A stretch of DNA of 64,000 nt from Salinisphaeraceae bacterium (GTDB lineage Bacteria > Pseudomonadota > Gammaproteobacteria > Nevskiales > Salinisphaeraceae), in contig NYTH01000039.1 of NCBI GenBank assembly GCA_002683405.1, positions 1 to 64,000 of the forward strand, given 5' to 3'. Positions 3,081-42,982 of this stretch are shown in pieces. A model generated the notes under the pieces. It was not told where the DNA came from. It did no database searches and was given only the letters and a program-made list of their open reading frames with translations. Position 1 is the first letter of the stretch, and every line of letters starts with the position of its first letter. The position numbers were made by a program, and so were the translations under genes.

Positions 3081-3157
3081 TGGTCGGGGTAGCAGGATTT
3101 GAACCTACGACCTCCGCCTCCCGAAGACGGCGCTCTACCAAGCTGAGCTATACCCCG
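3081..3157 (-). tRNA. tRNA-Pro (anticodon CGG)
   Basis: A 77-base cloverleaf on the minus strand. The acceptor CGGGGTA pairs with TACCCCG, the D-stem is GCTC/GAGC, the anticodon loop is TTCGGGA giving CGG, the T-loop is TTCAAAT, and CCA is encoded. It lies 5 bases after the ispB stop codon, so it is probably processed from the ispB transcript. Its 3' end is partly duplicated at 2504-2525. Confidence 0.96.
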
Positions 3158-31624: not shown

Positions 31625-31680
31625 GGAAGCGCGAGCGTGACTGGTTTTCAATGGCAGTAATGCCGGGATAGCTCAGTAGG
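31625..31680 (+). repeat. Upstream copy of tRNA-Thr leader and first 19 tRNA bases
   Basis: This 56-base segment matches 31774-31829 with three mismatches. Its last 19 bases (31662-31680, GCCGGGATAGCTCAGTAGG) are the 5' end of tRNA-Thr, ending exactly after the D-loop GG. The remainder of the tRNA is replaced by a hairpin cassette, so no tRNA can form here. Confidence 0.92.
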
Positions 31681-31759
31681 GCGAGCCGGATGTGGGACGA
31701 GCACTGCTCGGCCCCGGCGAGCGCCCGCCATGGAAGGCGGGCCGGATCGCGCAGGAATT
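31681..31759 (+). repeat. Hairpin cassette (family alpha) between the tRNA-Thr copies
   Basis: Starts right after the D-loop GG. Hairpin 1 is CGAGC-ACT-GCTCG (31698-31710). Hairpin 2 is CCCGCC-ATGGAA-GGCGGG (31724-31741). It contains GCTCGGCCCCGGCGAGCGCC, identical to the tRNA-Pro cassette, and ends in a GCGCAGGAATT stretch shared with the tRNA-Ser cassette. Confidence 0.88.
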
Positions 31760-31810: not shown

Positions 31811-31886
31811 GCCGGGATAGCTCAGTAGGTAGAGCAGGCGATTCGTAATCGTCAGGTCGCAGGTTCGACTCCTGTTCCCGGCACCA
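31811..31886 (+). tRNA. tRNA-Thr (anticodon CGT)
   Basis: A 76-base cloverleaf: acceptor GCCGGGA/TCCCGGC, D-stem GCTC/GAGC, anticodon loop TTCGTAA giving CGT, T-loop TTCGACT, CCA encoded. It is preceded by a partial copy of its own 5' end 149 bases upstream. Confidence 0.97.
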
Positions 31887-31967: not shown

Positions 31968-32058
31968 GCCGGAAGGCGCTGGAATTCAGCGAGGGCAGGG
32001 ACAGCCCGAACGAAAACACCCGGTAGCGATTACGCAAACAGGAGAGGTGGCAGAGCGG
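31968..32058 (+). repeat. Upstream copy of tRNA-Ser leader and first 18 tRNA bases
   Basis: Matches 32119-32210 with few differences (period 151). Its last 18 bases (32041-32058, GGAGAGGTGGCAGAGCGG) are the 5' end of tRNA-Ser and stop right after the D-loop GG, the same breakpoint as at tRNA-Thr. The copy begins with GCCGGAAGGCG, the tail of a hairpin cassette, which hints at a further ancestral unit. Nothing recognisable lies in 31887-31967. Confidence 0.92.
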
Positions 32059-32137
32059 GCGAACCGGACAAAGGACGAGCACAGCTCGGCCCCGGTGAGC
32101 GCCCGCCAGGGATGGTGGGCCGGAAGGCGTAGGAATT
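32059..32137 (+). repeat. Hairpin cassette (family alpha) between the tRNA-Ser 5' copies
   Basis: Aligns along its whole length with the tRNA-Thr cassette. Hairpin 1 is CGAGC-ACA-GCTCG (32076-32088). Hairpin 2 is CCCGCC-AGGGAT-GGTGGG (32102-32119), where one pair has become G-T but the stem is kept. Confidence 0.88.
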
Positions 32138-32192
32138 CAGTGAGGGCAGGGACAGCCCGAACGACAACACCCGGTAGCGATTACGCATACAC

Positions 32193-32282
32193 GGAGAGGT
32201 GGCAGAGCGGTTGAATGCACCGGTCTTGAAAACCGGCAAGGGTGCAAGCCCTTCGTGGGTTCGAATCCCACCCTCTCCGCCA
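32193..32282 (+). tRNA. tRNA-Ser (anticodon TGA)
   Basis: A 90-base class II tRNA: acceptor GGAGAGG/CCTCTCC, anticodon loop CTTGAAA giving TGA, long variable arm AAGGGTGCAAGCCCTT, T-loop TTCGAAT, CCA encoded. Partial copies of its 5' end lie upstream and of its 3' end downstream. Confidence 0.97.
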
Positions 32283-32617
32283 ACATACAAAGGCCAGCAA
32301 AGTACAGATGGGCGCCGGTGGCTTAGTTCGGCACAATTCGAACCCACGAAGTGGGTCGACCGATTGGCCGGGAGCCAATCGGAACTGCCGAAGGCAGGCC
32401 CGAAGGGCGGAGCACAGGGATGTGCGGAGTAATCCCACCCTCTCCGCCAACATTCAGATGCCGGCAAAGTACAGATGGGCGCCGGTAGCTTTATTCGGCA
32501 CAATTCGAACCCACGAAGTGGGTCGACCGATTGGCCGGGAGCCAATCGACAGCTGCCGAAGGCAGGCCCGAAGGGCGGAGCACAGGGATGTGCGGAGTAA
32601 TCCCACCCTCTCCGCCA
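32283..32617 (+). repeat. Two tandem 167/168-base units each ending in the tRNA-Ser 3' end (family beta)
   Basis: The units end at the CCA of 32449 and 32617, and each last 19 bases (AATCCCACCCTCTCCGCCA) copy the T-arm/acceptor/CCA end of tRNA-Ser. Each unit also holds a 16-base inverted copy of the tRNA's T-arm (32336-32351, 32503-32518). In unit 1 hairpins follow in series: CCCAC-GAA-GTGGG, CCGATTGGC-CGGGA-GCCAATCGG (32360-32382), CTGCC-GAA-GGCAG, GCCC-GAA-GGGC and GCAC-AGGGAT-GTGC. The layout recalls the E. coli tyrT repeats. No gene is seen up to the fba start at 32739. Confidence 0.9.
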
Positions 32618-32738: not shown

Positions 32739-33758
32739 ATGGACAGCGATAAATTGATGCGCACGGCGCAGGCACTGGTGGCTTCGGGCAAGGGCATTCT
32801 GGCGGCGGACGAGTCCAGCCCGACGATCAAGAAGCGGTTTGACAGCATTGACGTGGAGTCAACCGAGGAAAATCGCCAGGCCTATCGCGATCTGTTGTTT
32901 ACCACCGACGGCGCCGAGGAGTTCATCAGCGGCGTGATCCTTTACGAGGAAACGCTGTTCCAGAAGGGCCTGTCCGGCACGCCTTTCCCGGAATTGCTCT
33001 CCAGCAAGGGCGTGATTCCCGGCATCAAGGTCGACAAGGGCGCCAAGCCTCTGGCCGGCAGCCCGAACGAAAAGGTCACTGAAGGCCTCGACGGCCTGCG
33101 TGACCGCCTGGCCGATTACGCCAAGGCCGGCGCTCGGTTTGCGAAGTGGCGTGCAGTGATCGACATCGCCGACGGCGAGCCAACCGACTACTGCCTCGAC
33201 GTGAACGCCCACGCGCTGGCCCGCTACGCGGCGCTGTGTCAGGAAGCGGGCATCGTGCCCATTGTTGAACCGGAAGTGCTGATGGACGGCGGCCACGACC
33301 TCGCGCGCTGCGAAGCCGTGACCGACGCCACGCTGATCAAGGTGTTCGAGGCGCTCAAGACCCAGCAGGTACTGCTGGAGGGCATGCTGCTCAAGCCCAA
33401 CATGATCATTTCCGGCAAGAAGTGCGGTGACCAGGCCAGCGTGCAGGCCGTGGCGGAAGCCACCATTCGCTGCCTGAAGCGCCACGTGCCGGCTGCGGTG
33501 CCGGGCATCGTGTTTCTGTCCGGCGGCCAGAGCGACGAAGTGGCCACGGCCCATCTGGACGCCATGAATCGTCTGGGTCCGCATCCCTGGCAGCTGAGCT
33601 TTTCCTATGGCCGGGCCCTGCAGGCACCTGCGCTGGCGGCCTGGCGCGGCAAGCCGGAAAACGTCGAGGCGGCGCAGAAGGCCTATTATCTGCGCGCCAA
33701 GTGCAACGGCGCGGCTGCCCGCGGCGACTATTCGGACGCCATGGAAAAAGCGGCCTGA
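32739..33758 (+). CDS. Class I fructose-bisphosphate aldolase
   Basis: Cleaves fructose-1,6-bisphosphate by a Schiff-base mechanism, in glycolysis and gluconeogenesis. It is the eukaryote-like class I type: KGILAADESSPTIKKRF near residue 18, KWRAVIDI, and LLKPNMIISG with Schiff-base Lys219. FLSGGQSDEVA and LSFSYGRALQ complete the active site. The length is 339 residues. AAGGAGA precedes the ATG. It is followed by a strong terminator and is transcribed alone. Confidence 0.95.
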   Translation: MDSDKLMRTAQALVASGKGILAADESSPTIKKRFDSIDVESTEENRQAYRDLLFTTDGAEEFISGVILYEETLFQKGLSGTPFPELLSSKGVIPGIKVDKGAKPLAGSPNEKVTEGLDGLRDRLADYAKAGARFAKWRAVIDIADGEPTDYCLDVNAHALARYAALCQEAGIVPIVEPEVLMDGGHDLARCEAVTDATLIKVFEALKTQQVLLEGMLLKPNMIISGKKCGDQASVQAVAEATIRCLKRHVPAAVPGIVFLSGGQSDEVATAHLDAMNRLGPHPWQLSFSYGRALQAPALAAWRGKPENVEAAQKAYYLRAKCNGAAARGDYSDAMEKAA

Positions 33759-42740: not shown

Positions 42741-42982
42741 TTATCGGTTGCTAAAGAATTGAAAACCCGCGGAATTAGTCGATCGGCGGGTAGCCGTCGG
42801 TGGCTCGGCGGCGGGCAGTATGGTATAAACCGCCCGCGCTCGCGGCAACGCGGGCCGTTTTTTGACTCTTTACATACCATTCCACACGCAGTTCGGCACG
42901 GCCGGTTGGGTGTCCAGCGCCGCTTTAACGGGTGATCTGGATTTCCGGTTGGGAACTGCGGAGGCATAACCCGGAGCACAAT
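42741..42982 (+). promoter_or_regulatory. rpsB promoter/leader with an early hairpin
   Basis: An extended -10 (TGG-TATAAA, 42821-42829) lacks a clear -35. Just downstream, CCCGCG (42833-42838) can pair with CGCGGG (42849-42854), followed by six T residues (42858-42863), like a terminator or attenuator. A TTGACT at 42862-42867 could be the -35 of another promoter. The leader is about 120-150 bases; rpsB leaders in gammaproteobacteria are known to bind S2 for autoregulation. Assignment of start site is uncertain. Confidence 0.5.

Follow-up and report, generated by a model that had tools for sequence, protein, structure and literature searches.

Among the described systems closest to the locus reported here, the RtT RNA of E. 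coli is cut from a tRNA transcript during processing, and the tRNA sites of genomic islands typically combine a cut in the T-loop with a ~19-nt 3′ repeat. The RtT family is represented in Rfam by RF00391, whose gathering score is 45 bits, and an RtT sRNA is annotated by PGAP behind E. coli proK (L312–L316). In Thioalkalivibrio, an RtT sRNA is among the transcripts induced in the cold (PMC8092127); this was the only paper found in a literature search on the rtT/tyrT repeats, with the classical tyrT-repeat papers being outside the reach of the search.

The window (the whole stretch of 64,000 nt that was analysed, from a Salinisphaeraceae bacterium) carries an intact tRNA-Ser(TGA) at 32193–32282 (+ strand; ARAGORN; Rfam, 62.3 bits), which is directly followed by unit 1 (32283–32449, +; 167 nt) and unit 2 (32450–32617, +; 168 nt). 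The sequence-only reading had described units of 167/168 bases that end in the last 19 bases of tRNA-Ser, and this was borne out: by sequence comparison, AATCCCACCCTCTCCGCCA, which closes both units (32431–32449 and 32599–32617, both +), is the same as the final 19 nt of tRNA-Ser(TGA), both copies being exact, and the two units are 94% identical. Unit 1 consists of a spacer, an inverted T-arm copy, a four-hairpin core (X) and the 19-nt tRNA-Ser 3′ end. The inverted copies (32336–32351 in unit 1 and 32503–32518 in unit 2, both on the − strand) are each 16 nt long and 100% complementary to the tRNA-Ser T-arm (32251–32266). Under R3, a core-only X model used at a threshold E of 1e-4, the X cores are located at 32360–32430 (+; 91.3 bits; fold z of −4.1) and 32527–32598 (+; 74.6 bits), with that of unit 1 placed between TCGA and AATCC, that is, at A58|A59 of the T-loop. 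No terminator-like site was found on the + strand from tRNA-Ser to the end of unit 2. A match to Rfam sX4 (RF02223) at 32182–32359, covering tRNA-Ser and downstream sequence, scored 41.7 bits, under its cut-off, and sX4 itself may represent a tRNA-Ser region instead of a separate sRNA; elsewhere in the window, a t44 RNA at 42865–42970 is an ordinary match over the cut-off.

The X core (X3) is ~70 nt in length and is made up of hp1 (9 bp, with a loop around CGGGA), hp2, hp3 (GCCCGAAGGGC) and hp4, followed by GAGT. By inspection it runs C...GAGT and has no terminal repeats. In downstream tRNA copies it is found as TTCGA|X|AATCC, while at tRNA-Met, tRNA-Gly(CCC) and tRNA-Val(GAC) of this genome it is reversed; both orientations occur because TTCGAA is palindromic. 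D-loops are occupied as well, in tRNA-Ser(GCT) of the same genome and at two further loci (L146 and L197). Over 91 matches, all 23 base pairs covary (score 0.625 vs 0.146 for shuffled alignments), with the alignment leaning to the structure of the model.

Comparison with RtT was made in both directions. RF00391 matches units 1 and 2 at 22.3 and 21.1 bits (E of 0.04 and 0.08 over 4227 families; cmscan), which is under the Rfam cut-off, and the units are therefore filed as RtT relatives and not as members; an E of 0.04 over 4227 families amounts to about 1e-5 for a single family named beforehand. In both units the alignment is in register from model position 1 to 130 and ends at the tRNA CCA (32449 and 32617). 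Reciprocally, R2, a model built from five T-loop inserts of this genome without any E. coli sequence, finds all four tyrT units of MG1655 (35.6, 34.0, 31.0 and 14.9 bits; E from 5e-11 to 2.5e-4 in 2.3 kb), scores that derive partly from shared, unmasked T-loop letters, with core letters and hairpin order agreeing in the alignments. Common to both loci are a four-hairpin core of ~70 nt and its position at A58|A59 of a partial T-arm copy, in the form TCGA|C...GAGT|AATCC. The closing helix of RtT requires a 5′ strand complementary to the T-stem plus acceptor 3′ strand; this strand was not seen in the window units, and the first pairs of the model are marked as non-standard there. Judged on sequence and predicted structure, the window units are distant relatives of the E. 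coli RtT repeats. The likeness to tyrT pointed out earlier is real; of the two origins then offered, a common mechanism gains support, whereas unrelated sequences that converged can be set aside, since RF00391 matches over its full length and R2 recovers the tyrT units.

At E≤0.1, RF00391 has matches in 74 of 274 genomes, 18 of them above the cut-off. Among 30 RtT loci fetched from 30 genomes, 24 sit 0–80 nt behind a tRNA (Tyr, Gln or Ser) and 21 end in the tail of that tRNA. An exact-pattern search over named genomes returned at least 117 stretches, and 94 units were counted in the 80 loci listed; as these loci were picked by the pattern, they show the appearance of the units and not how common they are. 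Among the matches listed, 73 of 94 units have a same-strand tRNA upstream (median distance, 77 nt), a count that takes the nearest tRNA, with ~14 units having a tail that does not match it. For the 70 listed units that could be tested (those with a tRNA containing AATCC), an exact 19-nt copy of the tail of that tRNA is present in 50; among the remaining units, many are at contig ends or consist of X placed in the T-loop of an otherwise whole tRNA copy. Direct repeats extend at least 30 nt beyond CCA in 25 of the 50 exact-tail units among the matches listed, often through the terminator, with some of these comparisons being between tandem units. One unit, from Nitrospira (L229), seems to be a chance match.

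The copying of tRNA ends is not confined to tRNA-Ser(TGA). The 43 tRNAs of the genome were scanned with 800-nt flanks where the contig permits (18 nt, one mismatch allowed): for nine of 43 the own 3′ end recurs downstream and for nine of 43 the own 5′ end recurs upstream (14 of 43 with either), against isotype-swap expectations of 0.45 and 0.39, respectively, and the number of wrong-side copies (5′ end downstream or 3′ end upstream) among the 43 tRNAs is zero. The 5′ copies mostly end at nt 18–22, in the D-loop, and the 3′ copies mostly begin in the T-loop. In the window, nt 1–18 of tRNA-Ser recur upstream at 32041–32058 (+), stopping in the D-loop, and nt 1–19 of the intact tRNA-Thr(CGT) (31811–31886, +) recur upstream at 31662–31680 (+). 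The last 22 nt of tRNA-Pro(CGG) (3081–3157, −) are repeated at 2504–2525 (−). At a further locus (L064; G000 C49), the 5′ half of tRNA-Arg(ACG) has an exact 40-nt copy upstream, whose start is 105 nt from the gene; an adjoining X element was not recognised.

The upstream 5′ copies are closed by another element, X5 (GGGCGAGCCGG...), whose model (R1) has two covarying hairpin domains. It is joined to the 5′ copy of tRNA-Ser (32057–32120, +; 88.8 bits) and to that of tRNA-Thr (31679–31742, +; 88.3 bits), and adjoins the tRNA-Pro 3′ copy (2572–2634, +; 78.3 bits). Flanking D-loop fragments and also gene starts, X5 has 10 copies in the genome by R1: eight adjoin tRNA genes, one follows a tRNA 5′ end at the edge of a contig, and the last is in the start of murG (L071; G000 C42, around 32753–32819), where the opening ~29 nt of the gene stand on both sides as a repeat of 27–29 nt. 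In other genomes, X5 with repeats was found at the start of a HAD phosphatase gene (L102) and of mnmG (L115). The two mnmG starts of L115 are alike near the X5 junction, but their first codons are dissimilar (MSQQRYEV vs MSTQSYQV), a pattern that would fit the arrival of one copy via recombination. R1 detects X5 in none of the same-family genomes and in 27 of 44 same-order genomes, among whose loci read it is mostly away from tRNAs.

X is likewise dispersed. Of 185 gammaproteobacterial genomes, 81 have R3 matches, some of them at a great distance from tRNAs, and one genome holds seven near-identical dispersed X copies, within a larger repeat; the dispersed copies of G181, G150 and G205 are in larger repeats and may have been carried passively. 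At L245, X is positioned within hp3 and within hp2 of other X copies; at L146, a copy of tRNA-Ser(GCT) has X in both its D-loop and its T-loop; and at L250, whole tRNA-Glu genes or copies are broken by X in the T-loop. The occurrence far from tRNAs, the near-identical dispersed copies and the self-nesting therefore indicate, at the level of sequence, that X is mobile. The non-redundant X sites number 78 (30 T-loop-like and 48 not). Targeting of hairpin loops, although persuasive on visual inspection, was rejected, as stems around the 48 non-T-loop junctions average 2.85 vs 3.05 at control positions (P value=0.87); a sequence preference for (G/C)A|AA persists. Flanking repeats of at least 16 nt accompany 15 of the 30 T-loop sites vs four of the 48 others, and at least three of those four are at tRNA D-loops; thus duplication accompanies tRNA genes, which is what one would see if a tRNA could withstand insertion only when duplicated. 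In three cases at L245 and L146, the second base beyond the junction after a nested or D-loop X is C for an expected G (AGG→ACG). A further locus (L361; G195) has X cores in tandem, at 72-nt spacing, in an apparent coding sequence.

In 14 same-family genomes, tRNA-Ser(TGA) precedes a class I aldolase gene (the window aldolase was identified by Pfam) and has units neither upstream nor downstream, a state that favours gain in the lineage of the window; as the empty sites belong to another genus, loss there is possible in principle. Checked against relatives, the refuting condition set earlier (no such units behind their tRNAs) gave a divided answer, with units absent from this locus in the 14 genomes yet present behind many tRNAs class-wide. 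An empty site was also sought at E. coli proK, and both of the partial matches that were read turned out to be IS insertions (IS621 and IS3).

The best explanation, and one that we consider likely, is insertion of X in the T-loop combined with local tRNA duplication, with the units being kin to RtT. X would be a small non-autonomous element that enters (G/C)A|AA sites, for which the conserved T-loop TTCGA|A of any tRNA would be an ideal target. As insertion would kill the tRNA, the survivors would be cases in which local duplication left an intact gene plus an X-bearing fragment. The duplicated stretch would have reached from A59 to CCA plus flank in the window, and would have comprised the tRNA 5′ part in the 5′-type cases, with one end coinciding with an X edge. 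Unequal recombination could then have multiplied the units, giving two in the window and three or four at tyrT. Co-transcription of the units with the tRNA is probable, and they would be cut off and released during its processing, like E. coli RtT. For the insertions themselves, we infer transposition as the cause and an enzyme acting in trans. Counting against this, X is not associated with any transposase, integrase or reverse transcriptase and has no terminal inverted repeats, and X sites outside tRNA genes have no long direct repeat that would link insertion to duplication; random tandem duplication plus selection may instead be the source of the duplicated ends.

The strong covariation and conserved hairpin order could also mean selection on the RNA instead of a selfish element. 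It is possible, if on balance doubtful, that RtT-type units are selected small RNAs with a tRNA-tail closing helix and a multi-hairpin body, freed by tRNA processing and acting on tRNA maturation or the stress response, with the duplicated tails serving processing. The covariation in every helix would fit, as would the annotated sRNA behind proK, the cold-induced Thioalkalivibrio transcript and the strand complementary to the own tRNA tail or T-arm that many units carry (mean of 9.6 nt vs 6.5 nt for other isotypes; 0 of 200 permutations). However, the presence of units is patchy, as the 14 empty loci illustrate, X copies sit inside one another and also occur scattered at a distance from tRNAs, and the closing strand is missing from the window units. 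Selection on the RNA and insertion are compatible, as single copies may have been recruited; given the pair covariation and the strands complementary to the own tRNA, an RNA role for some copies is possible.

The other accounts have far less in their favour. That X is a REP-type palindrome moved by RAYT (Y1 transposase) has little probability: the genome does contain three Y1_Tnp genes, but the one on C37 has ordinary REP palindromes (GTAGGCCGG...) and not X on its flanks, and around the other two the stretches that were read showed no X; RAYT was rejected as the mover of X, as the flanks do not fit. Simple tandem duplication or slippage at tRNA ends, with the likeness to tyrT arising by convergence, would account for arrays of similar period here and in E. 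coli, but core, hairpin order and exact T-loop position are common across the class; as a complete account it is refuted by the recovery of the tyrT units with R2, and its probability is very low. Lower still is that of the units being attR scars of genomic islands, left as a copy of the tRNA 3′ end by an integrase cutting in the T-loop. The T-loop cut and the ~19-nt 3′ repeat are what such sites would show, yet a structured core is found again at many different isoacceptors and also outside tRNAs, and the repeats that run at least 30 nt beyond CCA in half of the exact-tail units listed, often through host terminators, would not be carried by an attP; not being confined to the tRNA 3′ end, these repeats largely refute this origin.

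Insertion with local duplication, if correct, would place the tyrT repeats, a long-standing puzzle, in a family and offer an origin for them that can be tested; they would become one case of a tRNA-wide pattern and not a peculiarity of tyrT, and a mobile element of very small size would be implicated. A further suggestion is that the RtT sRNAs annotated at proK and behind other tRNAs are not tyrT products despite their labels. With roughly even confidence, we propose more broadly that a single mobile hairpin element of ~70 nt, able to nest in itself, is the source of both E. coli RtT RNA and the window units, these being its host-bound copies. The element would have spread through Gammaproteobacteria by targeting any tRNA T-loop and been tolerated via partial tRNA duplication, and would represent an unrecognised, possibly RNA-mediated, minimal mobile element.

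Compared with known systems, X departs from MITE and IS elements, which are marked by terminal inverted repeats and a constant short target duplication: inspection shows no terminal repeats in X, and its sites away from tRNA loci are without long repeats. With integrative islands at tRNA genes, the units share a duplicated tRNA 3′ end that runs from the T-loop onward; the units, in contrast, have no integrase and an insert of ~100 nt, their repeats reach into the host flank, and both tRNA ends are affected. REP/BIME palindromes with RAYT are similarly short, structured, dispersed and non-coding, but differ in sequence and target, and the RAYT link is absent here. The units of E. coli proK, one or two by strain, have a like architecture behind tRNA-Pro(CGG), although they were named RtT by an annotation pipeline and their product note says that they are processed from the tyrT transcript. 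From the RtT RNA of E. coli tyrT-tyrV (rttR/tpr repeats), the window units differ in their host tRNA (Ser), in their score (22 bits vs the 45-bit cut-off) and in having an inverted T-arm copy in place of a strand complementary to the whole tail; they share with it the location behind a tRNA, the 19-nt 3′-end copy, the insertion at A58|A59, four hairpins in like order, GAGT before AATCC, and tandem units of similar period.
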